A stretch of 64,000 bases of DNA. It comes from an uncultured Verrucomicrobiota bacterium (GTDB lineage Bacteria > Verrucomicrobiota > Verrucomicrobiia > Limisphaerales > UBA9464). The translations under genes were made by a program, and so were the position numbers. Numbering within the stretch: position 1 is the stretch's first letter; every line of letters begins with the position of its first letter. Below, piece after piece: positions 26,406 to 41,512 of the stretch. Under the pieces are notes generated by a model. That model worked only from the letters and a program-made list of their open reading frames with translations. It did not search any database and was not told where the DNA came from. The stretch spans positions 1-64,000 of the forward strand of contig CAIVQB010000018.1 of the NCBI GenBank assembly GCA_903907925.1, read 5' to 3'.

Positions 26406-27204
26406 TCCAAAATGAATTCAGCGCAGTATGACGCCCAATGCGGACACTCTGAGCGATCGCCTGCGTGATGTGATTCTTCGCCAGTTCCACTGCCTCGGGT
26501 AGCGCGAGCCCCAACGCCAGATAGCCGGCGATGGCTGCGGAATAGGTGCAGCCGGTTCCGTGGGTGGTGACGCCGCGGATCATCGGGACGGAGAAGGTCA
26601 GGCCATTCCGGCCGTCGAAAAAAACGTCGGTCGCCGTGCGGACTCCGCGGAGGTGCCCGCCTTTGACGAGCGCGGCGCATCCGAATCGGAGATGAATCTC
26701 AATGGCCGCCTGGTGCAGATCATCGATCGAACGCAGCGGGTGCCCCACCAGGACTTCCGCCTCGTCGAGATTGGGTGTGATCAGAGTAGCCAGCGGCAGA
26801 AGGCCGTCCAACAACGCACGAACGGCGGCCGGCTGAAGCAATCGCGCCCCACTGGTGGCGATCATCACCGGATCGACGACCAACGGCGGACGTTTCCGTG
26901 CGGGAATGGAGGACCAGAATCGGACCACCTCCCGGATGAGCCCTGCGTTGAAGAGCATCCCCGTCTTGACTGCACGCGGCGGCAGTTCGGCGAAGAGAGT
27001 TTCCAACTGCGCCCAGAGGAAGGCCACCGGCACCGCATGAACCGCGGCCACCGTCGACGGGTTTTGGGCGGTCAGACAGGTGATTGCCGACGTGCCGTGA
27101 ACCCCAAGCGCCGCGAAGGTCTTCAAATCCGCCTGGATGCCCGCGCCCCCGCCGCTATCGGAGCCAGCGATGGTGAGCGCGATGGGCTGATGATGGCGAG
27201 TCAT
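26401..27204 (-). CDS. thiD: Hydroxymethylpyrimidine/phosphomethylpyrimidine kinase
   Basis: This 267-residue protein is a ribokinase-fold enzyme that phosphorylates HMP and HMP-P for thiamine synthesis. The motifs are IAGSDSGGGAGIQADLKTF, KTGMLF, VVDPVMIATSGARLL, LITPNLDEAEVL, KGGHLRG and HGTGCTYSAAIAGYL. The ATG at 27204 overlaps the TGA of the upstream transglutaminase gene by four bases. The frame is open further upstream, but that stretch lies inside the transglutaminase gene and is not ThiD-like. No other thiamine gene is nearby. Confidence 0.93.
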   Translation of the reverse strand: MTRHHQPIALTIAGSDSGGGAGIQADLKTFAALGVHGTSAITCLTAQNPSTVAAVHAVPVAFLWAQLETLFAELPPRAVKTGMLFNAGLIREVVRFWSSIPARKRPPLVVDPVMIATSGARLLQPAAVRALLDGLLPLATLITPNLDEAEVLVGHPLRSIDDLHQAAIEIHLRFGCAALVKGGHLRGVRTATDVFFDGRNGLTFSVPMIRGVTTHGTGCTYSAAIAGYLALGLALPEAVELAKNHITQAIAQSVRIGRHTALNSFWK

Positions 27205-28055
27205 GTCGCGGAAAGTGCTAAGGGCGCGGGCTCTTCCGTGACCGTCACCTCGACCTCCATTTCGCGGCGGGTGATGCCTTTGTAGTTGCCGCGGACGGGG
27301 GGGACGTCGGCGTAGTCGCGGCCGACGGCGAGTTTCACGTAGCGTTCGTCCGGTTGACGGCCGTGGGTGGGGTCGAGAGCGCGCCAGCCGATTTCGGGCA
27401 GGAAGACTTCCACCCAGGCATGGCTGGCTTGGGCGCCCGGGGTGCAAAGGTAGCCGCTGACGTACAGCGCCGGGATCTGGATCGAGCGACAAAGCCCGAT
27501 CAGAACATGGGCGAAATCCTGGCAAACCCCCACCCGGGCCGCCAACGCGTCGCGCATGTGGGTTTGGGCGTGGGTCGAGAGCGGGGTGTAGGTGAGGTGC
27601 GCCTGGACGAAGCGGTTCAGGGCCTGCGCGGCCTGCCAGAGATCGGTGTGACCGGCGGTGGCGTCGAGTGCCATGCGCCAGAGAGCGGGATCGTTTTCGA
27701 CGAACTCACTCGATTGAAGGTAGTCAAAGCAGCGTTCCAATCGCGCCAGCGACGGTGCAACGGAAAGAGGCACCGGCGTGGCCGCGGGATCGAGCCAGTT
27801 GGCGCCGGTCGTCGTCACCCGGGTCCGGGATTCGATGGTCAATGACGCGTGGGGCGGGGTGATTTCGAAATGATGGACCCAGTTCAGGTAAAAATCCTGG
27901 TAACGTCGGACGGCGACCGCGGGATCAATCCGTAGTTCGAAGGAATCGCAGGTCTGGTGCTCGTTGCTGAACGGCTGGAGTCGGACCTCGTTGAAGCTCT
28001 CCTTCACCGGTGTGGAATACCGGTACCGGGTTCGGTGGAGGATGAAGAGCCTCAT
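27201..28055 (-). CDS. Transglutaminase-like cysteine peptidase family protein
   Basis: This 284-residue protein has an N-terminal bacterial transglutaminase-associated beta region (FILHRTRYRYSTPVKESFNE). The catalytic domain follows: cysteine in RVGVCQDFAHVLIGLCRS, histidine in ASHAWVEVFLPEIGW and aspartate in ALDPTHGR. These cytoplasmic proteins probably act as peptidases or cross-linking enzymes and often occur in operons with circularly permuted ATP-grasp proteins, which are absent here. The ATG at 28055 gives the standard family N-terminus. It overlaps thiD by four bases. Confidence 0.9.
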   Translation of the reverse strand: MRLFILHRTRYRYSTPVKESFNEVRLQPFSNEHQTCDSFELRIDPAVAVRRYQDFYLNWVHHFEITPPHASLTIESRTRVTTTGANWLDPAATPVPLSVAPSLARLERCFDYLQSSEFVENDPALWRMALDATAGHTDLWQAAQALNRFVQAHLTYTPLSTHAQTHMRDALAARVGVCQDFAHVLIGLCRSIQIPALYVSGYLCTPGAQASHAWVEVFLPEIGWRALDPTHGRQPDERYVKLAVGRDYADVPPVRGNYKGITRREMEVEVTVTEEPAPLALSAT

Positions 28056-28145
28056 CGTGCGGAGCCTGACGAAGAAGTAGCCCTGCGGGCAAGCGTTGCA
28101 AAAGGCCGTTGACGGTCCCCGGGGGACCCCGGTCATGCTGATCGC

Positions 28146-29753
28146 ATGTTCCTGCCCCTTGTTCGCCGTGCAGCCCCGTCGGAATCCGCCGTGGCGCGCA
28201 CCTTTTCCCCGGCCGTGTTGCTGGCATCCGCGCTGACGCTGACCCTTCCGGTCGCGGCTGAAGTCCGCCTGCATCCCCTGTTCTCCGATCATGGCATACT
28301 CCAGCGAGGCATCCGGGTGCCGGTATGGGGCACCGGCGATGAAGGCGAACGGGTCACGGTGGAATTCGCCGGCCAAAAGGTGTCCACCACCGCGCACAAC
28401 GGCCGCTGGCAGGTGTCGTTGAGTCCGTTGAAGGCTTCGAACCACGGCGCGGTACTGAAAGCGAGTGGCCCCGCCAACGCGACCGAGGTCACCGATGTGG
28501 TCGTCGGCGAGGTCTGGATTTGCTCCGGTCAATCCAACATGGAATGGCCGTTGAGCCGCAGCTACCAGCCGGAGGCCGACATCCAGGCCAGTGCCAATCC
28601 GAACCTGCGGTTGTTCACCGTCGCGAAGCGGCGGTCGCCCGAGGCGAAGACCGATCTCGATTACGCCAAGCATTCCTGGGCGGTTGCGGGACCGGACACG
28701 GTGAAGAATTTCTCCGCGGTCGGCTATTATTTTGGTCGGAACCTCGAAGAAGATCTGAAATCCCAGGGTGTTCCCGTCGGATTGATCCACACCAGTTGGG
28801 GTGGATCTCCGGCCGAAGTGTGGATGAGCGACTCGGCGATCCGGGCGAATCCCTCCTACGCTCGCGATCTTCAGGAAGCCGATGCGGCAGCGTACCTGGG
28901 CTATCAAAAGGGCCTGCTCGCCTGGGAAACGGAGAAGGCGGCCGCTGTGGCCAAAGGCGAAGCGTTCACCAAGAACCGTCCCTTTGCGCCGTGGCAGAAT
29001 TCCGAACTCTACAACGGCATGATCGCCAACCTCATTCCCTACGCCATCAAGGGAGCGATCTGGTACCAGGGCGAATCCAACGCCGGACGGGCCTGGCAGT
29101 ACCGCGAATTGTACGGCGACATGATCAAGAACTGGCGTCGCGATTGGGGCCAGGGCGATTTCCATTTCTACGCGGTGCAACTGGCGCCGTGGGACAAGAG
29201 CCGGAGGCGGGAGATGTCAGTGATCGCCAGCGAAGTGGGCGATTCCAATTGGGCCGAATTGCGTGAAGCGCAGGATTTTGTTGCCGCCACGGTTCCCAAC
29301 ACCGGAGTCGCGGTGATCACCGATGTGGGCGACAAGGACGACATCCATCCCACCCGCAAGGCCCCGGTCGGTGCGCGTCTGGCCCTGCTGGCGCGGTCGA
29401 AGGCCTACCATGAACCGGTGGAATCCTCCGGTCCGGTGGTCCGCACCTTCACCTTCGTCGGTGGCGAAGCACTGCTGGATTTCAGCCATGTGGGCAGTCG
29501 GCTGCAAACCCGGGATGGACTCGCTCCGACTGGATTCTCGGTCGCCGGTGAGGATCACAAGTTTCACGCGGCGACCGCCCGGATCCGCGGCAGATCCGAA
29601 ATCGTCGTCCAGAGCTCCGAAGTTGCGAAGCCGGTTGCGGTTCGCTACGGCTGGGCCGACTATCCGGTGGTGAATCTGAGAAACGGTGCGGGTCTTCCCG
29701 CGTCACCGTTCCGCACGGATTCCTGGGAATTGACCACCCAGAAGAAACCGTGA
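28146..29753 (+). CDS. Sialate O-acetylesterase-like protein (SASA domain)
   Basis: This 535-residue exported protein has a signal segment near residues 20-38 (SPAVLLASALTLTLPVAAEV). The SGNH-type serine is in CSGQSNMEWPLSRS (about residue 129). Other conserved parts are LIHTSWGGSPAEVWMSD and AIKGAIWYQGESNAGRAW, and DKDDIHPTRKAPVGARLAL carries the catalytic DxxH. It removes acetyl groups from carbohydrate, sialate or other sugars. The gene is followed by a BNR-repeat protein, which makes a periplasmic glycan-degrading pair plausible. It is divergent from the transglutaminase gene. Confidence 0.92.
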   Translation: MFLPLVRRAAPSESAVARTFSPAVLLASALTLTLPVAAEVRLHPLFSDHGILQRGIRVPVWGTGDEGERVTVEFAGQKVSTTAHNGRWQVSLSPLKASNHGAVLKASGPANATEVTDVVVGEVWICSGQSNMEWPLSRSYQPEADIQASANPNLRLFTVAKRRSPEAKTDLDYAKHSWAVAGPDTVKNFSAVGYYFGRNLEEDLKSQGVPVGLIHTSWGGSPAEVWMSDSAIRANPSYARDLQEADAAAYLGYQKGLLAWETEKAAAVAKGEAFTKNRPFAPWQNSELYNGMIANLIPYAIKGAIWYQGESNAGRAWQYRELYGDMIKNWRRDWGQGDFHFYAVQLAPWDKSRRREMSVIASEVGDSNWAELREAQDFVAATVPNTGVAVITDVGDKDDIHPTRKAPVGARLALLARSKAYHEPVESSGPVVRTFTFVGGEALLDFSHVGSRLQTRDGLAPTGFSVAGEDHKFHAATARIRGRSEIVVQSSEVAKPVAVRYGWADYPVVNLRNGAGLPASPFRTDSWELTTQKKP

Positions 29754-29829
29754 GGCACGTCGGTTGTTCAGCGTGAAGACGGGTTGAGCCCGCGGGCGTC
29801 GTCGCGCCAGTTTGAAAGCACTCTTTGGA

Positions 29830-30861
29830 ATGAAACTCCTTCGCCTTGCCCTGCCGGCTCTCTGCGGTTGGGCGGCCGCCTGCCTTGCCGTTGCCCAAAC
29901 CCCGGTGGGATTGGTGCGGACCGAGTTCCTCGCGGATCCGCCGCCCACACCTTCCTCTCATGCCTCGACGATTTGCGAGTTGAAGGGCGGCCTGGCGGCG
30001 GCGTGGTTCGGTGGAACGGCTGAACGGCAGCGCGACGTCGTGATTTGGTTCATCCGCCAGGAGAAAGGCGTCTGGACCCGCCCGGCCGAGGTGGCCCGGG
30101 GCGATGAAGATGGCGACGAACAATGGGCCTGCTGGAATCCGGTCCTGGTGCAGCCGCAGAAGGGTCCGCTGCTGTTGTACTACAAGGTCGGTCCGAGTCC
30201 TTCCGAATGGTGGGGCCGGCTGAAGACCTCCGATGACGGCGGCATCCACTGGTCCGCGTCCCGGCGGCTGCCCAAGGGAATCATCGGACCGGTTCGCAAC
30301 AAACCCATCGAGTTAAGCCCGGGCATCCTGCTTTGCGGCGCCAGCGAAGAGAGTTCGGGTTGGCGGGTGCATATGGAAACTGTGCGCCAGCCGGGGAGCG
30401 CCTCGCCTTCCTGGAGCCGGACGGTGGACCTGAATTCCGCCCTCGAATTCGGTGCCATCCAGCCGACGATTCTGGTTTGGCCGGATCTCGGGATCCAGAT
30501 TCTGTGCCGGACCCGGCAGAAGCTTCTCACCGAATCGTGGAGCACCGACGGCGGGATGAGTTGGAGCCGGATGCGCCGGACCGACATCCCCAATCCGAAC
30601 AGCGGTGTGGACGCGGTGATGTTGAAGGATGGCCGGGCGTTGTTGGTTTACAACCCGACCACCGAGTCGCGGCATTCACTGGGAGTGGCGTTGATCGAAG
30701 AAGGACGGAAGTGGCACCATGTCCTGAATCTCGAAGACGACGCGGGCGAGTACAGCTACCCGGCGGTGATCCAGACCGCGGACGGAATGGTCCACACCAC
30801 CTACACGTGGAAGCGCGAGAAAATCAAACACGCGGTCATTGATCCCGCCCTGTTGAAGTAG
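29830..30861 (+). CDS. BNR-repeat (sialidase-superfamily) protein
   Basis: This 343-residue exported protein has signal peptide MKLLRLALPALCGWAAACLA. It has a six-bladed propeller look with Asp-box type repeats such as TSDDGGIHWSASRRLP and STDGGMSWSRM. The first blade reads SSHASTICELKGGLAAAWFGG. Members of this group are annotated as exo-sialidases, but in PVC bacteria the substrates are often other glycans, so the name should be read as a fold. The ATG at 29830 was preferred to a TTG at 29812. Its last 26 bases overlap the convergent histidine kinase gene. Confidence 0.85.
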   Translation: MKLLRLALPALCGWAAACLAVAQTPVGLVRTEFLADPPPTPSSHASTICELKGGLAAAWFGGTAERQRDVVIWFIRQEKGVWTRPAEVARGDEDGDEQWACWNPVLVQPQKGPLLLYYKVGPSPSEWWGRLKTSDDGGIHWSASRRLPKGIIGPVRNKPIELSPGILLCGASEESSGWRVHMETVRQPGSASPSWSRTVDLNSALEFGAIQPTILVWPDLGIQILCRTRQKLLTESWSTDGGMSWSRMRRTDIPNPNSGVDAVMLKDGRALLVYNPTTESRHSLGVALIEEGRKWHHVLNLEDDAGEYSYPAVIQTADGMVHTTYTWKREKIKHAVIDPALLK

Positions 30862-32074
30862 GCTCCGGAGTTCGCCGGGCGCTGCCGGGTGGCAGCGGAA
30901 TGAGCGCCTCGATTTCCGTGCCGGCGTGGCGATGGGATTTGATTTGAAGCGTGCCGCCGACATAGGCCGCCCGTTCGCGCATGCCGACGAGACCCAAGCC
31001 ACCCTTTTGTTTTCCACGCACCGGCCTACGTTGCGGATCGAATCCGATGCCATCGTCGGCAATCACCAACCGTACCAAGCCGTCGGTGACATTCAGGTTC
31101 ACCGTGACGTGGTGGGCGCCGGCGTGCTTCTCCGAGTTTTTCAACGCTTCCTGCAGAATGCGGTAGATCGTCAGCTCAATGTCGTCTGGCAAACGCTCAA
31201 TCAAACCCACGACCATCTTGACCGGAACGCCCGCTTGTTCGGCGAACTGGGTGCAGATTTCGCGCAGGGCGGCGATCAGACCCAGGTGTTCCAAGACCCC
31301 GGGTCGCAGATTGCGCGAGATCCGTTCCACTTCATCGGCTGCTTCTCCGAGCAACTTGGCGAGCTCGCTGGCCTCCCGCTTTGCCGTCGCTTCGCGTGCC
31401 GGAAGCCGGTCCGCCAGCGTCTGGCTGCGAACCAAAATGGCGCAGAGCAGTTGGGTGATGTGATCGTGCAATTCGAGCGCCACGCGACCGCGTTCGGCCT
31501 CCTGCACCTGCACCACGCGGTGGGTCAATGCCCGCAACAGCTCCTCATTGCGTCGCGCCTCGGTCAGATCGGTCACCACCAGACCGAGGGTTGCACCGGT
31601 GGAATTCTTCCGGGGAAGCGGACGAATGGACAGTTGCACCGGCATTCGAGAACCGCTGCTGGTGTTGAGGATCGTCTGGAGTTTTGCACCCACCTTGCCG
31701 GCGCGTTTCAGAAGGGGTTGCAGAGCCGCCTGGTCTTCAGCGGCGAGAAAACGGCGAAACGAACTGCCGGTCACCTGCTCGAGCGGATAGTCAACCATCC
31801 GGGCGAAGCCCTGATTGGCGTAGAGAACGGCCCCGTCCGCCGTCAATGTCAGCGCCCCCTCGTTCATCGATTCGATCAGCACCCGGTAGGCATGGTCGGC
31901 ACCCTCCAGGGTGAACACCCGCGGACCGGCCTGACCCGCGACCACCAGGGCATCCACTTCGCCGGAGCGAATGGCGGTGAGGGTTGATTCCGCCTCGGCG
32001 AGGCGAATGCGGAGGCGGGTGAGTTCGCGGACTGGATCCGGCGTTGGAGAGCGTCCGCGCTTGGGAGTGTTCAC
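30836..32074 (-). CDS. PAS-domain histidine kinase (HisKA_3 type) of the kai operon
   Basis: This 412-residue cytoplasmic kinase has a PAS domain at about residues 60-170 (LIESMNEGALTLTADGAVLY). A short linker leads to a NarL-type dimerisation domain with the phospho-accepting histidine in RGRVALELHDHITQLL. The ATPase domain has ILQEALKNSEKHAGAHHV, IADDGIGFD and GGLGLVGMRERAAYVGG. No membrane segment is visible, so it senses an internal cue. The start is GTG at 32074, overlapping the TGA of kaiB by four bases. No response regulator lies next to it. Placement directly after kaiC-kaiB-kaiB suggests it is the output or input kinase of that system. Confidence 0.9.
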   Translation of the reverse strand: MNTPKRGRSPTPDPVRELTRLRIRLAEAESTLTAIRSGEVDALVVAGQAGPRVFTLEGADHAYRVLIESMNEGALTLTADGAVLYANQGFARMVDYPLEQVTGSSFRRFLAAEDQAALQPLLKRAGKVGAKLQTILNTSSGSRMPVQLSIRPLPRKNSTGATLGLVVTDLTEARRNEELLRALTHRVVQVQEAERGRVALELHDHITQLLCAILVRSQTLADRLPAREATAKREASELAKLLGEAADEVERISRNLRPGVLEHLGLIAALREICTQFAEQAGVPVKMVVGLIERLPDDIELTIYRILQEALKNSEKHAGAHHVTVNLNVTDGLVRLVIADDGIGFDPQRRPVRGKQKGGLGLVGMRERAAYVGGTLQIKSHRHAGTEIEALIPLPPGSARRTPEPTSTGRDQ

Positions 32075-32424
32075 GGACGAACTGAGGTCTTCGCGGCGAC
32101 ATCCAACCCGACAAACAGACCGCTGGTCTTGGTCAGATTACCAATCAGCCGGCGTACCGGCTTGGGAAACTCACGAACCAGCGTCGGTGTGGCGACAATC
32201 TGGCCGTCCCGCGCGAGGATCGGCTGTTGAAAGACGTCGATGACTTCCAACTCGTAGTGGCCCTCGAACTCGGTTTCACACAGGTGACGCGCACGCAGGA
32301 TCGCCTTGCGGGATCGGTCGGTGGCACCCGCCACGTAGAGCCGCAGGACGCATTTCTCCGTGGGCCGGGCCGCCAAGGCGCGTTCGAAGGCCTTCGTGGT
32401 GCGGTTGGATGGGGTGGCTTTCAC
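32071..32424 (-). CDS. kaiB: KaiB-like protein (second copy)
   Basis: This 117-residue thioredoxin-fold protein has CVLRLYVAGATDRSRKAILR, then YELEVIDVFQQPILARDGQI and VATPTLVREFPKPVRRLIG. These are the conserved KaiB regions. Compared with the first KaiB it differs at many positions, so the two are old paralogues rather than a recent duplication. It starts 15 bases after the stop of the first kaiB and overlaps the kinase start by four bases. In known clocks KaiB binds KaiC; binding here is inferred from the operon. Confidence 0.88.
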   Translation of the reverse strand: MKATPSNRTTKAFERALAARPTEKCVLRLYVAGATDRSRKAILRARHLCETEFEGHYELEVIDVFQQPILARDGQIVATPTLVREFPKPVRRLIGNLTKTSGLFVGLDVAAKTSVRP

Positions 32425-32439
32425 GGACGTCGGGCTGGG

Positions 32440-32769
32440 CTATTGGGCGGATCGCAGATCCAACCCCACCAACACGCGTTCGGTGTCGGAAAGGTCGCCG
32501 ATGATCTTTCGCACCGGTTCCGGCAGCTTCCGCACCAGGGTGGGAATGGCCAGAATCTGATCGCCCTTCGACAGTTGGGGTCGTTCGAGCAGATCAATCA
32601 CCTCGATGCTGTACTGGCCGCTGAGATGGGTCTCGCAGATGTTCTTGAGGTTCGAGAATGCCGTCAGTGACTTGGGCGTCTGGCCCGCCACGTAGAGACG
32701 GAGTTGCCACAGCTTTTCGGGCGGGGGATTTGCGCGGGCGGCCCGCCGTTTCACCGGTTTTGTTTTCAT
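32440..32769 (-). CDS. kaiB: KaiB-like protein (first copy)
   Basis: This 109-residue protein has [39 protein letters not shown] and [20 protein letters not shown], all typical of KaiB. The N-terminus is basic ([11 protein letters not shown]). Its ATG overlaps the TGA of kaiC by four bases, so translation is likely coupled. It is followed by a second, divergent KaiB gene. Confidence 0.9.
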
Positions 32770-34532
32770 CGGGTTTTGGTTTTCGGTTTGGAGCTTCCCA
32801 CCGCGCCGGTCGTCACCGATATGTCGGCCTGGCGCAGGCGGCCCAATTCGCTCCGCTCGGTGGTGAGCAATCGCGTCTGGGTTCCGATCTGTTCGTCAAT
32901 CTGGCGGAATTCTTCCGCGGTGGCCTCATGCTCAGAGCGCAGTCCGCTGATCTGTCGTTCGAGCGCCATCCGTTTGCTCTCCAGTTCGCGCTTGCGGCGG
33001 CCGGCCTCCTGTTGACCCGCCAGCGTCGCGGCTTTTTCGGAGGCGGTCTGCGCCGCCCGGGCCGATCCGGTCAGGACGCCGCTGGGACCGATGTAGGCGT
33101 CCACGAGGTCGACGCCGCGATCGGAGATCAAGAATTCCCGGATCTGGTTCGAGTGCGCCATGCCGCGCGCCTTGAGCACGTAGAGGACGCGATTGCGTTC
33201 GCCGTTGCCCTCAAAATCCTGCAGCAGCAACCAGGCGTCCATGAGCGAGGACATCGCCATCTCGGTTTGCTGCAGGGACTGACCGCCCTGGGTCAGGCTG
33301 GTGAAGAGGGTGGTGATCTGTCCGGCCTTCAGGTAGTCGATCAATCGCGTGACCATGCCCTTGCTCTCCGAGGCCGTGCCCGAATCCATGAGACTGGTGA
33401 TGGGATCCACGATGACCACCTCCGGTTGAAAAACGGCGATCTCCTTGAACATCGTCGCGAGATGCATTTCCAGGCCGTAGAGCGAGGGTCGCGCCGAGTG
33501 GAACCGCAGCAGGTTGCGTTTGACCAGCGGCTCCAGGCGCAACCCGATGGAATGCATGTTGCGGATGATCTGGTTGGGTGATTCTTCGAAGGAAAAGAAC
33601 AACGTCCTCTCGCCGCGCCGGGCGGCGGCCTGGGCAAAGTTGGCGGCGATGATGGTCTTGCCCGTGCCCGGTGTGCCGGTGAGCAGAATGCTGCTGCCGC
33701 GGAAGAAGCCGCGTCCGCCCAGCATCGCGTCGAGCCGGGGAATGCCGGTGGCGATCCGCTCGTTCGACACCCCGTGGTTCAATCCCAGCGAAGTGATCGG
33801 CAGCACGCTGAGGCCTGTTTCCCCGATCAGGAACGGGAATTCATTGGTGCCGTGCAGTGCGCCGCGATACTTGACCACCCGCAGATGTCGCGTGGCGATC
33901 TGGTCGTTGACCCGGTGATCCAGCAGGATGACGCAGTCGGAGACGTACTCCTCCAACCCGTGGCGGGTCAGTTGGTCGGAGTCGCGACCACGCTCGGCGG
34001 TGATGACAGCGGTCACGCCCTTGTCCTTGAGCCAGCGGAACAGGCGGCGGAGTTCGGCCCGCAGGATGGCCTCGTTCGGCAGGCCGGCGAACAATGCTTC
34101 GAGCGTGTCCAGCACCACCCGCTTGGCTCCGATGGAATCGATCGCGTGATTCAGCCGGACGAACAACCCCTCCAGATCGTATTCGCCGGTTTCGTGGATT
34201 TCGTTGCGTTCGATGCGGACGTGTTCGAGCAGAATCTTTTTTCGCCGCACCAGGCTGGTCAGATCGAAACCGAGCGAGGCGACATTCGCCTTCAACTCGG
34301 CTTCCGTCTCCTCGAACGACATGAAAACACCGGGCTCGCCGAACTGCGTCGCGCCGCGCACGAGGAATTCCGCGGCGAACAATGTCTTGCCGCAGCCCGC
34401 GCCGCCGCAAACCAGTGTGGGCCGTCCGCGGGGCAGTCCGCCGTCGGTGATTTCATCGAGCCCCTGGATGCCGGTGGGACACTTGGGCAATCGGGTAGCC
34501 CGGAACGCGGCGTGGGAAGCAGGGGGTACCAT
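32766..34532 (-). CDS. kaiC: KaiC-like double RecA ATPase
   Basis: This 588-residue protein has two KaiC domains. CI has the Walker A loop GGAGCGKT at residues 43-50 and the catalytic glutamates in MSFEETE (74-75). CII has GTPGTGKT and FFSFEESPN. The region matching the Ser-Thr phosphorylation pair of cyanobacterial KaiC reads [12 protein letters not shown], so two serines are the candidate sites. [20 protein letters not shown] is the conserved CII end. A C-terminal extension (about residues 500-575, rich in E, K, R, Q) looks like a coiled coil and is absent from Synechococcus KaiC. The ATG at 34532 was preferred to a TTG at 34574. It is the first gene of the kaiC-kaiB-kaiB-kinase operon; no kaiA is present. 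Confidence 0.93.
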
Positions 34533-34777
34533 CACCCGGCACGCTAGGACAACGTCATCAAAGCGATACAACAATTCAGATGGGGTGATTTCCCCATTGC
34601 TGACGCGAGGACACGACGCCGTCAGCCGCTGGACGGGGCTGCGGCGAGGTGGCGTTTCGCGGGTGCGGAGCTGTGGCCGTCACCCGTGCCAGACGCCGTT
34701 TTCAAGGAGACTGCAAACGACGCTCATTCTTCGCACCACCCTTTCCGGGAGGAGGTTCGGACTTGGAGAAAATCCCA

Positions 34778-36694
34778 TCAAGCCGTCGCCGCACCGGGCT
34801 TGCGTCCGATCGGCAGGGTCGGTGTGGAGGACTTCCCCTGAAAGCTGCGCCAGCGCGCGGCGGGCAGACAGCCGATCACGATCAACGCCAATTGGCTGAC
34901 GACAAAGGCGGCGAGGACCTGGAAGGCACCGTTCATGAAGCCGTAGCTATGGAGGCCGATGCCCAGCATGTTCACACCGAACCAGGACCAGCTGGTGACG
35001 ATGTTGCCGGCGATGGCCAGATTGACCAATCCGCGTTCCTTCACCCAGCCGCCCCAACGGGCGTGCAGGATGAGCGCGTTCCACAGCACGATGATCAATG
35101 CCCCGTTTTCCTTGGGATCCCAACCCCAGAACCGGCCCCAGCTTTGATCGGCCCAGATGCCGCCGAGAACGGTTCCGACGAAGCTGAACAGCGTGGCGAA
35201 GCAGACGATGCCGTAAACCATCCGTGCCAGGGAGCGGGCGGTGGCGGGGTCGAGGCTGCTGGTGAAGAATCCGCGCAGCACATAAACGATGGCCAGGAAG
35301 CCGGCGACGTAGGTGCTGGCGTAGCCGAGCGTCACGATCACCACATGGGTCGCCAGCCAGAAATTGGTGTCGAGGACGGCCCGGAGCATTTCCATGGTGT
35401 CGCCTTCGAGCGCGAGATTGTGGGCGATGATGAGAGTGACGAATCCGAGCAGGCTGCCGACGGCGAGCCCGATCGCGTTGCGCCACAGCCGTTCGAGAAC
35501 CAATCCGAGGATCACTGCGCCCCAGCCGATGAAGATGGCCGAGGAATAGAGGTTGGTGACCGGCGGCCGGCCTTCCAGCCACATGCGGAACACGAGGCCC
35601 TCCATGTGGATGATCAAGGCGAGCATCATCAACCAGGACGAGGTGAGCCGCAGCGGTTCTGAGAAGGTGAACCAGAAGGCAATGGCGCAGAGGAAGGCGG
35701 CGATGTAGATGACCAGCGCGTGGTAAAACGGCGCCATGCGGTTGAAGAAGGTTTCGCGGCCCGTCTTGGTCATGTCGGCGGGAACCGTCGCGATGCAGAA
35801 GCGTTCGTATTCGGTGAGCGCGGCATTGAAGGCACCGGCGTCACGGGCTTCAAAGGCGTCCCCCATCTTCGCCCAGGACAATGCGGCGACCGGCAACGGC
35901 GAGCCGCCCGTCAACTCCAGCAGGCGTTCGGGAAAGCGGGCCCAATCAGCTCCCCCCTCCGGCGGAAGAATCAGCGGTAGTTTGTCGGCACGATCCCCGC
36001 GTTGATAAAGAAACCGGGCGGTGGATCGGACGAGTGGATCGTTCTGGAGATCGGCATTTTCGGCAGAGGAACGTGCCCGGGCGGCTTCGAGGGCGTTGGT
36101 TCCGCGCGGAATCGCCTGCTGAAAAGCGACGAGTTCGGCGGCCAGTTGGGACACGCCGGAAGGGCGCGCGGTGTTGAGCAGGGCGTTGTACAACATCAGC
36201 GCGTTGCCGAGCCGGAGGATCCCCTGGTCAAAGGCGTCGCGCTGCGCATCGGCCTTGGCGCCGGCCAGACGGGATTGTTCCTGGAGGATGCTGACATTGG
36301 TGCCGGCCAGAATCTGGGTGAAGGAATAGTGCTGACCGTCCTCGCCCTTCGTCGCGTCCTTCAACGGCAGCCGGAGGAGTGAAATCAAATCCGGATGATC
36401 GATGCGGAACACGCTTCGTTCGCGGGCGGCATCCGGCCGGAACATCACCTCTGCCAGCCATTCGGTCGCGGATAACGAACGCTTTTCCGTCCGGTCATAG
36501 AACGAATACCGTTCGAAAATCTGCACCAACGAATTCCGGGCGAACGAATCGATGGGCTGATGCCGGCCTTTGAAGAGGATCGGCAGGTTGCCAAAGCGGG
36601 TGTAGGCGAATTCGCGATCGGTCGGCGGCACCAGATCGGAGAGAAACCACGCGGCGAACAGCGCCGGAATCAGCAGGGGCAGGTAGCGTTTCAT
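34778..36694 (-). CDS. ccsA: Cytochrome c biogenesis protein CcsA (ResC-like)
   Basis: This 638-residue inner-membrane protein belongs to System II cytochrome c maturation, which delivers heme to the outside for attachment to apocytochromes. The long periplasmic N-terminal part (about residues 25-315) follows one membrane helix. The C-terminal part has multiple helices with the WWD-type tryptophan-rich motif visible as GGIWADQSWGRFWGWDPKE. The ATG at 36694 begins MKRYLPLLIPALFAAWF; the open frame further upstream lies in resB. It is 14 bases downstream of resB. It would serve the heme-binding PSCyt1 proteins encoded earlier in the window, among others. Confidence 0.92.
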   Translation of the reverse strand: MKRYLPLLIPALFAAWFLSDLVPPTDREFAYTRFGNLPILFKGRHQPIDSFARNSLVQIFERYSFYDRTEKRSLSATEWLAEVMFRPDAARERSVFRIDHPDLISLLRLPLKDATKGEDGQHYSFTQILAGTNVSILQEQSRLAGAKADAQRDAFDQGILRLGNALMLYNALLNTARPSGVSQLAAELVAFQQAIPRGTNALEAARARSSAENADLQNDPLVRSTARFLYQRGDRADKLPLILPPEGGADWARFPERLLELTGGSPLPVAALSWAKMGDAFEARDAGAFNAALTEYERFCIATVPADMTKTGRETFFNRMAPFYHALVIYIAAFLCAIAFWFTFSEPLRLTSSWLMMLALIIHMEGLVFRMWLEGRPPVTNLYSSAIFIGWGAVILGLVLERLWRNAIGLAVGSLLGFVTLIIAHNLALEGDTMEMLRAVLDTNFWLATHVVIVTLGYASTYVAGFLAIVYVLRGFFTSSLDPATARSLARMVYGIVCFATLFSFVGTVLGGIWADQSWGRFWGWDPKENGALIIVLWNALILHARWGGWVKERGLVNLAIAGNIVTSWSWFGVNMLGIGLHSYGFMNGAFQVLAAFVVSQLALIVIGCLPAARWRSFQGKSSTPTLPIGRKPGAATA

Positions 36695-36708
36695 CGGAGG
36701 ACGGGGAT

Positions 36709-38028
36709 TCAGGCGCGGGGTTTGCGAAGAAAGCCGTTGAGATGGATTCCGAACTGGACCAGCAGACCGAGCGCCACCAGGACGCAACCGAGGTAAGGCG
36801 TCAGCCACGAGGGATTCTTGACCACCTGCAGCGTGCTGGTGCCGCGGTTGGCGGCGGCTTCGTCCTGCCCCATCTGGTATTGGAAAAAGGTCAATCCAGC
36901 ATAGCGCAACGGGTTGTTCATGTAGATGTCGGCCTCCCGTTTTCCATCCCTCGGATGATCCACCAACACGCGGCTCTGGAAGTGCTTGGGAATGCCTTCA
37001 GGATCGGCGGCGGTCGACGTGCCTGCATACGTCTCATGCTTCGTCTGCAGCAGTTTGATGCTGAAGGGCTGATAGTAACGGCGGGGACGCAGGGTGAAGG
37101 AATAGCTCCGGCCCCCAACGGTGACCGATTGCGGGACGATCAACTGCTGGTAGATCCGGGCCGTCATAGGGTAGTATTCCGGTAAAGCGTCCTGGAGCTG
37201 TTCATCAGTCCCGGCGCCACTGAAGGCCCTGACCCAGAATCGGCGTGCCGTGCGTTGGAGGTCGGATTCACCAGCCCATTCGGAAATCGCCCAGGTTCCA
37301 AGACTGGTGCCGTTGGTGGCGACCAGTTCCAGCAGGGCGGAGGGGATGTTCTTGTCATCCATCTTTCGGGTTTCTTTCACCGAACGGAAAGTGAACGACC
37401 GACCGATCCCCAGCGAAGTTTGGGGGGTGTTGGTCCGCTGCATCATCGGCGGTTGAAACGTCGGATCCGAATTCGGCATCCATTCCTTCACCCGGATTGT
37501 GAACGGCAGCGGTTCAGTGCGGATTTCTTCACCGATCTTCAGGAGCGAATCCGGAATGGCGACGACCGAATTCATCGCGGGATCCGGGAGGTCGGACAGG
37601 AAGACCAGTTCGGTTTCCTGGAAGTCTTCCGAATAATTCCGCCATTCCCCCTCGGCGAAACTGATCCGGCTTTCGTGGGCAAACATGTCGGTGGCGAGCT
37701 GGCCGACGAGTAGCACGATGATGCCGAGATGGCTGAGGATGATGCCGGTCTTCTTCCAGGCGAATTTGAAGCGGACCAGGTGGGCGGCGATGAGGTTCAC
37801 CAGCAGCGACGTGCCGAGCAGATAGCCGCCTGGCAACGGCACGATGATCCATTTCAACGAGGGATCGTGCGGCGACCAGGTGGAGAACCAGGAACGGAAG
37901 TAACGGGACTGGGCGACGTAGAGGCCGTCTTCGGTCTGGGCCAGGGTGCCGAAGAAGACGACCGCGATGCCCAACGCCAGCAGGGTGACGGTCAGGCGAA
38001 GCGAGGTCAGGGGGGCGAGAAGGCGTTT
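36709..38028 (-). CDS. resB: Cytochrome c biogenesis protein ResB
   Basis: This protein of about 439 residues has the ResB pattern. There is an N-terminal helix (RLTVTLLALGIAVVFFGTLAQ) and further helices near GGYLLGTSLLVNLIAAHLV and GIILSHLGIIVLLVGQ. A large periplasmic domain follows, then a last helix before the end. With CcsA it forms the heme-export and attachment complex. The frame can start at a TTG (38061) or a GTG (38028). I use the GTG because MKRLLAPLTSLRLTV looks like the family start, but the TTG adds only 11 residues. It is sandwiched between the lipoprotein gene and ccsA on the same strand. Confidence 0.85.
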   Translation of the reverse strand, partial: KRLLAPLTSLRLTVTLLALGIAVVFFGTLAQTEDGLYVAQSRYFRSWFSTWSPHDPSLKWIIVPLPGGYLLGTSLLVNLIAAHLVRFKFAWKKTGIILSHLGIIVLLVGQLATDMFAHESRISFAEGEWRNYSEDFQETELVFLSDLPDPAMNSVVAIPDSLLKIGEEIRTEPLPFTIRVKEWMPNSDPTFQPPMMQRTNTPQTSLGIGRSFTFRSVKETRKMDDKNIPSALLELVATNGTSLGTWAISEWAGESDLQRTARRFWVRAFSGAGTDEQLQDALPEYYPMTARIYQQLIVPQSVTVGGRSYSFTLRPRRYYQPFSIKLLQTKHETYAGTSTAADPEGIPKHFQSRVLVDHPRDGKREADIYMNNPLRYAGLTFFQYQMGQDEAAANRGTSTLQVVKNPSWLTPYLGCVLVALGLLVQFGIHLNGFLRKPRA

Positions 38029-38160
38029 CACGAAAAAGGGAGCGCGCGATGGACGGGCCAATGGACGGCGGGAAAGGCCACGGATTCGGAGTGTTTCGGG
38101 GATTTGGGGCGGGCCGCGGGTCTCGGGTGGTGATTCGCGGAACCGTTCGACGACGGTCGG

Positions 38161-39285
38161 TCAGTATTTCACCGATTTGAGGAATTTCACGAACCGGTCG
38201 TGTTCACCGGAGACCAGGGCGGCGTCACCGGTGAGTTTGTAGAACCAGGTCCGGTCCGGACGGGCGACGATGGCGGCCAGCATTTTCCGGCCGGCCGTCG
38301 CACCGGTGCCATCCAACTCGGCCACCACGGCCTGAGCGTCACCTTCAAGCTGGACCTTGGTGGTGTTGCCGGCGATGTCCTCGGCTCCGATCGGTGCGAG
38401 TCCCATTTGACCGCGCCAGCGATTGACGTTGGCCAGGGTCCCACCGGCTGCGGGTCCGAGGGCGACCACCGACAGGTCACCGCCGTTGCCGACCGCGAAG
38501 CTGGCGAGGCGCATGGTGGAGGCTTGAACCGGCTTCCAACCGTCCGGAACCTCCCATTCCGGAAGGCCCGTTGCCGGCGGCGGCGTCACCGGCCCGGCCA
38601 TGGCGGCGGGTGGGGCGGTGGTGGCGGGAGCCGTCGACGGCGGTGTGGCGGAGGAAGGCGACGACGGAGAACTGGTGGAAGATCCGGCGGAATCGCCGGT
38701 GTCCACCGACTTTAACCAGGCCAAAAACTTGGGTCGGTTTTCCGACACCAGCGCGTCTTCGCCGGTCATCTTGAAAAACACTGTCGTGCCGCCGAGCGAA
38801 AGAACCGCCGCGAGGGTCCGGGCCTTGTACTTGCCGTCGAGGGTGGGTTCCGTTCCCACCATGTCGTAGAGCTTCCCAGTGACACTGCCGATGGCGGCGG
38901 ACCCGGTTTGGGAATCGAGTTCAGCCTGGGTGATGGGAGCCAGGTGAAGCTGGTCTCGCCAGCGATTGACGTTGTCGAGTTCACCGCCGGCCACCGGACC
39001 GAGGGGCACTACCGACACATCCGCGCTTCGTCCATCGGTCGCGCTGATGCCGTAGCTGGCGATCCGCATGGAACCGCTTTCCCGTGGCTTTTCGGTCCAG
39101 CCCTCCGGCACCTGCCAGGGCGGGCGTTCGGGTCGGGATTCCGCGGCGGTCGCACCGGCGGGGCTGGCCGCCGCGGTGACCGCGCTGTCTTTCGGGGCCT
39201 GGTAGACTTGGATCTCCGCCTTTTTGCAGCCGACCCCGGCAAGGGTCGATGCCATCAGGACGGCGAGGCAGGGACGGAAACGCAT
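38161..39285 (-). CDS. Lipoprotein with two copies of an unknown domain
   Basis: This 374-residue protein has a lipoprotein signal (MRFRPCLAVLMASTLAGVGC), so it is probably anchored to a membrane through the cysteine at residue 20. It contains two homologous units of about 135 residues. The first starts PPWQVPEGWTEKP and ends KFLAWLKSVD; the second starts PEWEVPDGWKPVQ and ends RFVKFLKSVKY. Shared motifs are VNRWR, GGTTVFFKMTGEDALVS and WFYKLTGDAALVS. A low-complexity linker of S, T, P and A joins them. I recognise no named family. It precedes resB by about 100 bases on the same strand, suggesting a link to cytochrome c maturation. Confidence 0.85.
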   Translation of the reverse strand: MRFRPCLAVLMASTLAGVGCKKAEIQVYQAPKDSAVTAAASPAGATAAESRPERPPWQVPEGWTEKPRESGSMRIASYGISATDGRSADVSVVPLGPVAGGELDNVNRWRDQLHLAPITQAELDSQTGSAAIGSVTGKLYDMVGTEPTLDGKYKARTLAAVLSLGGTTVFFKMTGEDALVSENRPKFLAWLKSVDTGDSAGSSTSSPSSPSSATPPSTAPATTAPPAAMAGPVTPPPATGLPEWEVPDGWKPVQASTMRLASFAVGNGGDLSVVALGPAAGGTLANVNRWRGQMGLAPIGAEDIAGNTTKVQLEGDAQAVVAELDGTGATAGRKMLAAIVARPDRTWFYKLTGDAALVSGEHDRFVKFLKSVKY

Positions 39286-39358
39286 CCGGTCTAAGTAGCG
39301 GTGCCCCGGCGATCGGGCAAGCGCGGGCTCGGGCCGATTGCGGGTGGACGGTGGGATT

Positions 39359-41512
39359 TCAGCGGGATGGCCCCGCGCCGAGATGGGCCGCGATGAAGGC
39401 CAGCTTGTCGGCGGCTTCCTCGATGATCTTGCGGGTCGGCTTGCCCGCACCGTGTCCGGCCTGGGTTTCGATCCGGATCAACACCGGGGCAGGCCCCGCT
39501 TGAAGTTCCTGGAGACGGGCGGCGAATTTGAAGCTGTGGGCCGGGACCACGCGGTCATCGTGATCGCCGGTGGTCACCAGTGTCGCCGGGTAGCGGACTC
39601 CGGGCTTGAGATTGTGATAGGGCGAGTAGGCGAACAGGGCCTTGAACTGCGCTGCGTCGTCGCTGGATCCGTAATCGCTGGTCCACGCCCAGCCGATGGT
39701 GAATTTCTGGAACCGCAACATGTCCATCACCCCCACCGCTGGCAGCGCGGCACCGAACAGCTCGGGCCGCTGGGTCATGCAGGCACCCACCAGCAAGCCG
39801 CCGTTGGAACCTCCGGAAATCGCCAGGCGATCCGGTCGTGTGTAGTGCTGGGCGATCAACCACTCAGCCGCGCCGATGAAATCATCGAAGACATTCTGCT
39901 TTTGAAGCTTGGTTCCGGCTTGGTGCCAGGCCTCGCCGTATTCCCCTCCGCCGCGAAGGTTCGGTACGGCGTAGACTCCGCCGAGTTCCATCCAGGCGAG
40001 ATTTGCCACGTTGAACGCAGGAGTGAGCGAGATGTTGAATCCCCCATAACCGTACAGAAGCGTCGGATTCGAATCATCCAGCTTCAGCCCCTTTTTGTGG
40101 GTGATGAACATCGGAACGCGAGTTCCATCCTTGCTGGTGTAGAACACCTGCTTCACCTCGAAGGCATCGGGATTGAAATCCACTTTGGGTTGCCGCCAGA
40201 GGGTGCTGGTGCCGGTCTTGAAGTCGTACCGGTAGATCCGCCCGGGCGTCGTGAAGCTGGTGAAGCTGTAGAAGGTTTCCAGATCGGACCGCTTGCCCGA
40301 GAAACCGGCGGCCGTGCCAATGCCCGGCAGTTCAATGTCCTGGACCCATTTGCCCGTGAGGTCGAACAACTTCACCTGGCTGTGCGCGTCGCGGAGGTAT
40401 TCGGCAACGATCCGATCACCGACCACATTGGCAGTGGTCAGTGTCGCGTCGGTCTGCGCGATCCGTTCGCGCCACTCCGTTCGTTCGGGATTCCGGAGAT
40501 CGACGGCGATGACCCGGCCGCGCGGGGCCTGGAGGTCCGTGAGAAACAGGAAAACCGGACCGTCGTTGCCGATGAAATGGTAGCTGGCGTCGAACGCGTT
40601 GAGCAGTTCGACGACTGGCGACGTGGGGGCCGACAGGTCCTGGTAGAACACGCGGTTCTTCACCTCGGTGCCCTGTCGAACGTGGATGATCAGATAACGG
40701 CCATCCTCGGTGACCGAACCGTTGAATCCCCATTTGGGCTGGTCCTTCCGCTCATAGACCAGGCGGTCGGCGGATTGCGGAGTGCCGAGCCGATGGAAGT
40801 AGAGCTTCTGGAACTCGTTGACCTGGGTGAGCCGGGAAGCCTCGGGCGGCTGATCGTAACGTGAGTAAAAGATTCCCGAACCGTCGCGCATCCAGGACGC
40901 CTCTGAAAACTTCACCGAACGAAGAATATCGGTGGCGTCGGCCGCGGTGGCCACGTTGCGGATGCGCCATTCCTCCCAATCCGAGCCTGCCTCGGAAAGA
41001 CCGTAGGCAAGGTGTCGGCCGTCCTCAGAAAGGGAGTATCCCTTGAGCGCGACCGTTCCATTGGTGCTCAGACGGTTCGGATCGAGCAGGATCCGGGGTG
41101 GTGCGTCCAGGTCATCGGCAACGTAGAGCACTGCCTGGTTTTGCAGGCCGTCGTTGCGGGTGAAGAAGTACCGGCCGCCCTCGCGTTGTGGCGGTGAAAA
41201 CCGTTCGAAGTCGTACAGGTGGGTCAGTCGTTCCATCAGCGGTTTGCGCAGTGGAAGTTTTTCGAGTTGTCCGAAGGTGAACCGGTTCTGTTCCTCCACC
41301 CAGGCCTTCGTTTCGGCGGAATGATCGTCCTCCAGCCAGCGGTACGGATCGGTCACCGGGGTTCCATGGTAGTCTTCGACGACAGGGAGTTGGCGGGTGA
41401 CGGGATGAGCCGCGATGCCGGAGTTCACGGGTTGTGATAGGAGGGGCTGGGACACGATGAGCTGCAGGACGATCCATCCGGCCGTGAACGTGGGTCGTGT
41501 CTGACGGGCCAT
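39359..41512 (-). CDS. Prolyl oligopeptidase family serine peptidase (S9A)
   Basis: This 717-residue exported enzyme has an N-terminal hydrophobic segment (TAGWIVLQLIVSQPLLSQ) and then the propeller start (DPYRWLEDDHSAETKAWVEEQN). The alpha/beta hydrolase domain carries the catalytic serine in ISGGSNGGLLVGACM (about residue 570), the aspartate in TTGDHDDRVVPAHSFK and the histidine in QAGHGAGKP. It cleaves peptides after proline. The ATG at 41512 was chosen; the frame is open to 41611 without signal-like character. The usual family length is about 690-750. Its stop lies 73 bases before the lipoprotein start, so they may share a transcript. Confidence 0.94.
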   Translation of the reverse strand: MARQTRPTFTAGWIVLQLIVSQPLLSQPVNSGIAAHPVTRQLPVVEDYHGTPVTDPYRWLEDDHSAETKAWVEEQNRFTFGQLEKLPLRKPLMERLTHLYDFERFSPPQREGGRYFFTRNDGLQNQAVLYVADDLDAPPRILLDPNRLSTNGTVALKGYSLSEDGRHLAYGLSEAGSDWEEWRIRNVATAADATDILRSVKFSEASWMRDGSGIFYSRYDQPPEASRLTQVNEFQKLYFHRLGTPQSADRLVYERKDQPKWGFNGSVTEDGRYLIIHVRQGTEVKNRVFYQDLSAPTSPVVELLNAFDASYHFIGNDGPVFLFLTDLQAPRGRVIAVDLRNPERTEWRERIAQTDATLTTANVVGDRIVAEYLRDAHSQVKLFDLTGKWVQDIELPGIGTAAGFSGKRSDLETFYSFTSFTTPGRIYRYDFKTGTSTLWRQPKVDFNPDAFEVKQVFYTSKDGTRVPMFITHKKGLKLDDSNPTLLYGYGGFNISLTPAFNVANLAWMELGGVYAVPNLRGGGEYGEAWHQAGTKLQKQNVFDDFIGAAEWLIAQHYTRPDRLAISGGSNGGLLVGACMTQRPELFGAALPAVGVMDMLRFQKFTIGWAWTSDYGSSDDAAQFKALFAYSPYHNLKPGVRYPATLVTTGDHDDRVVPAHSFKFAARLQELQAGPAPVLIRIETQAGHGAGKPTRKIIEEAADKLAFIAAHLGAGPSR

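Follow-up and report, generated by a model that had tools for sequence, protein, structure and literature searches.

A kaiC-kaiB-kaiB-histidine kinase operon of an uncultured Verrucomicrobiota bacterium, with two types of KaiB and a kai-linked module in the kinase

The window analysed here, i.e. the whole stretch of 64,000 nucleotides (positions 1-64,000 of the forward strand of contig CAIVQB010000018.1, assembly GCA_903907925.1), comes from an uncultured Verrucomicrobiota bacterium (Limisphaerales; UBA9464), whose genome is 4.6 Mb in size and 96% complete. It contains the operon kaiC-kaiB1-kaiB2-HK1 (34532-30836, minus strand throughout), in which HK1 is a histidine kinase with a conserved N-terminal module in front of its PAS domain. 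The linkage of this module with kai genes is near-exclusive in the genomes and plasmids surveyed, and by their sequences the two KaiB proteins are separate lineages, not interchangeable copies. The core operon is a KaiBC-kinase unit, a kind of system already known. We give a little more than even confidence to the reading that it would be a KaiBC timer or energy-state switch that works without KaiA, is of the Cereibacter (Rhodobacter) sphaeroides type and has a two-component output of its own. The features of the operon are given below.

32766..34532, minus strand: kaiC, ATG at 34532 and stop at 32766, 588 residues
32440..32769, minus strand: kaiB1, ATG start, 109 residues
32071..32424, minus strand: kaiB2, GTG start, 117 residues
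30836..32074, minus strand: HK1, GTG start, 412 residues, HisKA_3/HATPase_c histidine kinase with N-terminal module and PAS domain
31868..32035, minus strand: N-terminal module of HK1 (profile A4, 58 positions), whose end runs into the start of PAS
31538..31891, minus strand: PAS domain of HK1, about residues 62-179
34533..34777, minus strand: gap of 245 bases between kaiC and the ccsA-like gene upstream of it on the same strand

An earlier note on this DNA had described the four genes as one unit joined by ATGA and GTGA overlaps and a 15-base gap, and the coordinates all match the window sequence: kaiC and kaiB1 share an ATGA (32766-32769), kaiB1 and kaiB2 are spaced by 15 bases (32425-32439), and kaiB2 and HK1 share a GTGA (32071-32074). 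For kaiC, an in-frame TTG at 34574, upstream of the ATG, is an alternative start and would give 602 residues. The Kai proteins score well over the Pfam cut-offs (KaiC 367 bits, KaiB1 94 and KaiB2 79, the latter two against a KaiB cut-off of 27), and HK1 exceeds those of HisKA_3 (41 bits), HATPase_c (57 bits) and PAS, with the H-box string ELHD at residue 201 and the HATPase/ATPase-box strings present. No sigma-70-type promoter or terminator pattern was found in the 245-base gap before kaiC by a simple scan.

The gene order was compared across loci gathered by KaiC similarity, namely the best 80 of 185 relatives. Most are labelled Verrucomicrobiota, and Lentisphaerota, Planctomycetota, Fibrobacterota, CSSED10-310, Acidobacteriota, Pseudomonadota, Bacteroidota and others are also represented. 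Two kaiB domains lie behind kaiC in 60 of the 80 loci (L045 is counted here, with a 34-bit remnant as its first kaiB domain), one in 16 and none in 4. A protein with the module follows kaiC at a distance of 0.3-3 kb in 71 loci, and in 65 there is a downstream catalytic part of the type of HK1 or of HK2, another HisKA_3 kinase described below. Hence the four-gene order, for which the earlier note had suggested a search, recurs in other genomes, and kinase homologues do stand next to kaiC elsewhere, a point on which the note had made its proposal depend. Of the nine loci without a module protein, eight break off at the end of their contig and only L076 has room for one. In 57 of 71 loci the last kaiB and the gene of the module protein overlap in frame (ATGA, GTGA or TTGA), so that conservation extends to the potential for translational coupling. 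The arrangement is not due to chance.

Residues 14-61 of HK1, which precede PAS, match no Pfam family at an expectation value (E) of 0.001. From 17 sequences with a mean column identity of 59% and nine invariant columns we built profile A4 of this module, and genomes were scanned with it independently of kai genes; in candidate-rich genomes, some first-look candidates were left unscored. The 116 genomes of the order contain 19 module places in 18 genomes. Sixteen of them follow a KaiC match that shares their contig and strand, and the other three come directly after kaiB genes at contig ends, which brings all 19 behind kaiB or kaiC. Counted by genome, KaiC matches above 600 bits occur in 15 of the 18 module genomes and in 2 of the 98 others (Fisher p 4e-14), and matches at E<=1e-20 in 17 of 18 and 9 of 98 (Fisher p 5e-13); once two partial KaiCs beside modules are added by hand, the figure is 17 of 18 with p 3e-17. 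Two genomes (G148 and G155) have a KaiC above 600 bits and no module, and both of these KaiCs lie at contig ends. The genomes of 14 further fetched loci yielded 14 module places in 13 genomes; 12 of the places coincide with the fetched kai loci, one is another kai stretch (G217) and one is the G215 place described below. In a phylum sample of 79 genomes, the module was detected in two, the own genome of the window and G054, and KaiC at E<=1e-100 in the own genome only.

Beyond the own phylum, the linkage was examined on plasmid records. Module and PAS were matched together in 14 of 72,556 records, and 13 of the 14 have KaiC alongside, from five species (nine records of C. sphaeroides and one each of Pararhizobium, Rhizobium, Falsirhodobacter and Sinorhizobium); the 14th match (Paraburkholderia) concerns mainly the PAS part. 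KaiC at E<=1e-80 is also found on 14 records, and the sole module-less one (Aquisphaera) is only 38% identical.

The output joined to the module varies. It is a HisKA_3 kinase in the window, an HWE kinase in C. sphaeroides, Falsirhodobacter and Rhizobium, a HisKA kinase with receiver in Pararhizobium and two Planctomycetota-labelled loci (L073 and L075), and a sigma-54 activator beside a HisKA_3 kinase in a Syntrophaceae locus (L070), while only PAS domains were found in L077 (cut) and L078. Because the head is constant, the outputs are exchangeable and the whole is tied to kaiBC, we infer that the module may be the Kai-contacting or Kai-reading part of HK1. The Syntrophaceae locus (L070, 3608-7737) has three KaiB domains, and its kinase and its activator both carry the module.

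KaiC of the window consists of two RecA-like domains, matched by PF06745 in two stretches, with both Walker A motifs present (GGAGCGKT at residue 43, GTPGTGKT at residue 286). It is the single KaiC match in its genome and matches NCBIfam NF006799 with 734 bits. Its best solved relatives are 8dba (642 bits), 8fwi (638) and the tail-less 8db3 (623), whereas other full-length solved KaiCs reach about 330-370 bits. An alignment of 566 residues with the protein of C. sphaeroides 2.4.1 has 303 identities (54%); the serine pair S428/S429 aligns with the SS pair of KaiC-RS (C. sphaeroides), and the C-terminal extension aligns with the KaiC-RS coiled-coil tail up to residue 562. Since 8dba scores 642 bits and cyanobacterial KaiCs about 340, and both the SS sites and the tail are aligned, we assign the protein by sequence to the C. 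sphaeroides type, KaiC2, with two serines and a long tail. In KaiC-RS, tail and SS pair are tied to KaiA-free phosphorylation, a coiled-coil dodecamer and control by the ATP/ADP ratio, and C. sphaeroides KaiBC acts in vitro as an hourglass timer (PMC10076222).

KaiA itself, which a KaiABC oscillator includes, has no match in the own genome: PF07688 gave none at E<=10. Of 14 control genomes, 5 respond to the same search, including Synechococcus elongatus, and 1 passes the cut-off. The description of the unit as KaiA-less in the earlier note thus holds for the whole genome at this threshold.

The two KaiB proteins differ in what they resemble. Under the stricter NCBIfam model PRK09301 (cut-off 110), KaiB1 passes with 112.9 bits and KaiB2 fails with 82.8, and neither reaches the cut-off of TIGR02654 (145.3); C. 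sphaeroides KaiB (8fwj) scores 112 bits against KaiB1 and 75 against KaiB2. A KaiB tree was calculated with 140 rows on 87 columns, which are few columns for so many rows; four known KaiBs were added, and 4 of 140 kaiB domains were omitted as shorter than 75 residues (L004, the first copies of L040 and L045 and the second of L018). On this tree the position-1 copies of Verrucomicrobiota-type loci cluster with C. sphaeroides and cyanobacterial KaiB (67 rows, support 98/90), and the position-2 copies form a separate clade (67 rows, 100/97). In other phyla, the position-2 KaiBs are placed outside the KaiB1 group, though support is weak. By this tree KaiB1 belongs to the lineage of the fold-switching KaiB-RS and cyanobacterial KaiB. 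The three fold-switch prolines, as named in PMC11551320, are present in all 54 KaiB1 and all 59 KaiB2 sequences that cover all 87 columns.

Presence of the two KaiBs is asymmetric. Of the 72 fetched loci of this KaiC clade, 53 encode the two together, 12 KaiB2 alone and 2 KaiB2 beside a remnant of KaiB1, none is without KaiB2 and 5 are interrupted by contig ends; L018 is scored as having both although a contig end cuts its KaiB2. Intact KaiB1 is therefore missing in 14 of 67 informative Verrucomicrobiota-type loci (including L040 and L045, with KaiB1 remnants of 42 and 34 bits) and KaiB2 in 0 of 67, and all 12 single-KaiB loci with room for two hold KaiB2. In 10 of these 12, kaiC now overlaps the start of kaiB2 by an in-frame ATGA or GTGA, so these ten look like clean deletions of KaiB1. 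No further KaiB match was found in 10 of the 12 KaiB2-only genomes, and two (G007 and G010) have two KaiBs elsewhere; most of the genomes are metagenome assemblies of unestablished completeness, by which absences may be inflated. On the KaiC tree the absence of KaiB1 amounts to 10 changes, a count that assumes loss rather than gain and, with many forks open, may exceed the true number. Outside the clade, the single KaiB of L076 (a locus with room) and those of four alphaproteobacterial plasmid loci (L097-L100) are of KaiB1 type, so that reductions run both ways. Two lineages with such an asymmetry suggest that the roles are divided, one KaiB serving the clock and the other the output.

Most likely, the operon would encode an ATP/ADP-driven KaiBC timer or switch that is read by KaiB2 and the kinase. 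By homology alone, KaiC would form a dodecamer of two hexamers joined via coiled-coil tails and autophosphorylate at S428/S429 without KaiA, its state tracking the ATP/ADP ratio, and, as in the solved relative, a fold-switching KaiB would bind KaiC and take part in the return. KaiB2, translationally coupled with the kinase, would convey the state of KaiC to HK1, which would receive it via the N-terminal module (with PAS) and alter the phosphate flow to a NarL-type response regulator. KaiB1 would be the reset or feedback KaiB and dispensable. This output mechanism is the best-supported reading and draws on the linkage described above; the phosphorelay readout that the earlier note had suggested for HK1 is plausible.

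Several observations weigh against this output reading. A NarL-type response regulator lies within 700 bases behind the kinase in 19 of 63 loci with room, only a minority. No relative of the kai-locus response regulator exists on the contig of the window. The best one in the own genome, with 61% identity, is encoded on contig C51 and immediately follows two HK2-like genes; the product of one (232 residues) stops short of the ATPase domain and no longer has the H-box histidine, and that of the other (391 residues) has both parts. In this regulator (L094, 7100-7792), whose reading frame extends into the beginning of a gene judged by eye to be fructose-bisphosphate aldolase-like, GerE matches positions 1-24 of 57 only and most of the helix-turn-helix is lost, by real truncation or by misassembly; the cognate regulator of HK1 in its own genome is therefore uncertain. 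The module also occurs apart from kai genes in G054, where its gene is broken and the 15 kb fetched contain no kai gene, and in G215, where it stands at the end of a contig and the preceding 4.8 kb are free of kai genes. Conversely, L076 is a kai locus with room and has no module there or in its genome. In C. sphaeroides and three other plasmid loci the module is accompanied by just one KaiB, of KaiB1 type; it thus does not depend on KaiB2. Finally, an AlphaFold2 model of KaiB2 from 11 sequences places its elements in what we take to be the order of the ground state, not of the fold-switched state, at a predicted confidence (pLDDT) of 59, which is too weak to use. The idea that KaiB2 is locked in the fold-switched, SasA-like state is not supported, given this order and the three intact prolines; state-selecting use of AlphaFold2 is itself disputed in the literature.

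Other explanations of the same loci were considered. HK1 could serve as an input, with PAS sensing redox, light or a ligand and the kinase adjusting KaiC or KaiB; PAS domains are often sensors of small molecules. The R. sphaeroides kinase has been viewed as passing a redox signal to KaiBC (PMC5520375, PMC10931921). However, the module is also carried by a sigma-54 activator and its kinase is followed by a NarL-type regulator in those 19 of 63 loci, both outputs to gene expression, and we regard an input role as rather unlikely. KaiB2, for its part, might act as a decoy or antagonist, competing with KaiB1 for KaiC and having no special link with the kinase, and as a member of the KaiB family with all three prolines (59 of 59) it may bind the same site of KaiC. 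A pure antagonist should not outlive KaiB1, yet 14 of 67 loci keep KaiB2 without intact KaiB1, and the 10 of 12 remnant-free KaiB2-only genomes without a further KaiB match tell in the same direction; we consider this unlikely as well.

More weight is due to the explanation that the KaiBC-kinase unit is a stress or energy-charge switch without a timing role, whose probability we judge to be somewhat below even. It agrees with the scattered occurrence (of 116 genomes in the order, 26 have KaiC at E<=1e-20, and the site is empty in a congener) and with the stress role cited for Legionella KaiC (PMC5520375), but the hourglass behaviour of C. sphaeroides KaiBC in vitro (PMC10076222) speaks for timing, and the window KaiC keeps the key sequence features. 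At the other extreme, the conserved order could reflect mere operon inertia after horizontal transfer, with kinase and Kai proteins functionally unlinked. Module and kai genes do occur on plasmids and in scattered genomes, but their linkage persists across Verrucomicrobiota, Lentisphaerota, Planctomycetota, Pseudomonadota, Bacteroidota and Thermodesulfobacteriota labels while the output domain changes, which makes inertia very improbable.

The patchiness is visible at the site of the operon. In the congener G098 (L105, 6402-7248), the BNR and ccsA genes adjoin at a distance of about 0.8 kb, whereas 3.9 kb with the operon separate them in the window, and no kai protein match below E 0.3 was found in the G098 interval; the congener G156 and the family member G187 lack a C. 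sphaeroides-type KaiC. The operon is therefore patchy and was gained or lost at this site. On contig C85 of G156 (107208-108394) a different KaiC-like gene, about 40% identical, is left as two fragments, one of which is interrupted by a TGA. A foreign-looking composition was not found, because GC content within the operon (about 62-64%) falls in the range around it (59-68%) and gives no sign of recent arrival. Kai operons are located on plasmids typed as conjugative in L096 (Pararhizobium plasmid p3) and L100 (Rhizobium plasmid pRPC2), and such plasmids are a possible route of their spread.

In the window, the operon lies between a pair of ccsA/ResB-like genes for cytochrome c biogenesis on its upstream side (34778-38061) and a BNR-repeat gene that converges on it from downstream (29812-30861). 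Next to the cytochrome c biogenesis genes there is an open reading frame of 429 residues (38161-39450, minus strand) that is conserved in three relatives and matches no Pfam family at E 0.001. A transglutaminase-like gene (27201-29180, minus strand) is listed with about 370 surplus N-terminal residues that overlap a convergent esterase gene, and its true start is probably much later.

A second kinase, HK2, accompanies some of the kai loci. Where 1300 bases or more are available ahead of kaiC (68 loci), it is located within 300 bases upstream on the same strand in 12 and somewhere upstream in 21. An RsbU_N-like domain is encoded upstream on the kaiC strand in 6 of the 80 loci (L002, L015, L026, L033, L050 and L071) and on the opposite strand in one (L069). 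The N-terminal domain of four full-length HK2 proteins, picked for similar-looking N-termini, matches RsbU_N (PF08673) below the cut-off at E 4e-5 to 1.5e-3. Its profile reached RsbU at best with E 0.13 in the PDB, and no KaiA; no Foldseek match was found at E<=0.001. In a structural re-ranking of the domain model (pLDDT 93.9), KaiA C-terminal domains took the 1st, 3rd and 5th places (Z 9.3, 9.0 and 8.7), a stressosome protein the 2nd (Z 9.0) and a designed protein the 4th (Z 8.8), Z scores that are common for helical bundles. The best match, KaiA 1v2z, has Z 9.3 with a root-mean-square deviation of 2.9 over 86 aligned residues, and KaiA and RsbU share this fold (PMC11372060). Within the order, 26 of the 116 genomes encode RsbU_N-like domains, in no case on a contig that has a listed KaiC match. 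Thirteen of these genomes give no KaiC match at E<=1e-20; of the 26 KaiC genomes, 13 contain such a domain, an enrichment with KaiC (Fisher p 4e-4, genome size uncontrolled). With half of the domain-bearing genomes lacking KaiC and the RsbU and KaiA matches weak, HK2 as a dedicated KaiA substitute is only suggestive, and we keep its possibly RsbU/KaiA-like domain as a lead. L094 (5229-5927) and similarly L002, L015, L026 and L033 encode short proteins resembling HK2, in which an RsbU_N-like domain and a HisKA_3-like stretch are followed by no ATPase domain; some of them (own genome, L015) no longer have the H-box histidine, which the others retain.

Among known systems, SasA, in which a KaiB-like domain is fused to a histidine kinase, is the output of cyanobacterial KaiC. 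HK1 is comparable in working only, as a histidine kinase tied to KaiC and a KaiB-type protein; in the window the KaiB-like part is a separate gene, and Pfam found no KaiB domain in HK1 and hence no such fused N-terminus. KaiBC of C. sphaeroides (PDB 8dba, 8fwj), whose 2.4.1 plasmid shows a kaiC-kaiB-kinase operon, is alike in its long-tailed KaiC with SS sites, its KaiB of the KaiB1 lineage and its kinase with the same N-terminal module, and differs in having a single KaiB, an HWE kinase in place of HisKA_3 and a KaiC of 54% identity. The main text of the C. sphaeroides KaiC paper (PMC10076222) does not contain the term "histidine kinase". A kaiC-B-PAS/HK operon has been named in R. palustris and R. 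sphaeroides (PMC4794148). The KaiA-free gene set of R. palustris is alike, and its description in that paper mentions no second kaiB. Of the relatives given in the earlier note for KaiBC-kinase sets outside Cyanobacteria, Rhodopseudomonas agrees with this paper and the C. sphaeroides plasmid can be added, while Legionella is a poor comparison, since its KaiB (4kun) reaches no more than 55 bits against KaiB1 and 39 against KaiB2.

According to the Ramlibacter paper (PMC3164672), kaiC/kaiB outside cyanobacteria are nearly always followed by a histidine kinase or a GGDEF/EAL protein, and a conserved N-terminal region, RtaNt, was proposed to interact with KaiC in kinases of the kaiB-less group; its main-text section on the kaiC-kaiB group has neither a module of that group nor two KaiB lineages. 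KaiA3 joins a NarL-type receiver to a KaiA-like four-helix C-terminal domain (PMC11372060). HK2 of some relatives may likewise join a KaiA-like domain to two-component parts, but it is a kinase, its domain is weakly RsbU_N/KaiA-like and it lies outside the window. No kai operon of Verrucomicrobiota was among the open-licence literature matches listed, and no report of either a kai-bound module or a retained second KaiB was found in the literature searched.

A wider interpretation can be offered tentatively, and we would sooner expect it to fail than to hold. The module would be a general receiver of the Kai state, a counterpart of the KaiB domain of SasA with unrelated sequence, with interchangeable outputs in at least six phyla by label, the C. 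sphaeroides system included; KaiB2 would be an old output KaiB that outlives the clock KaiB, and the KaiA-like domain on the second kinase would be a further input in some members. HK1, with its unnamed kai-linked module, is a good candidate for the part that reads the timer, and with the module nearly exclusive to the surroundings of kaiBC and KaiC and KaiB of C. sphaeroides already purified and solved, the question of how KaiBC timers without KaiA hand their state on to gene expression is directly testable.

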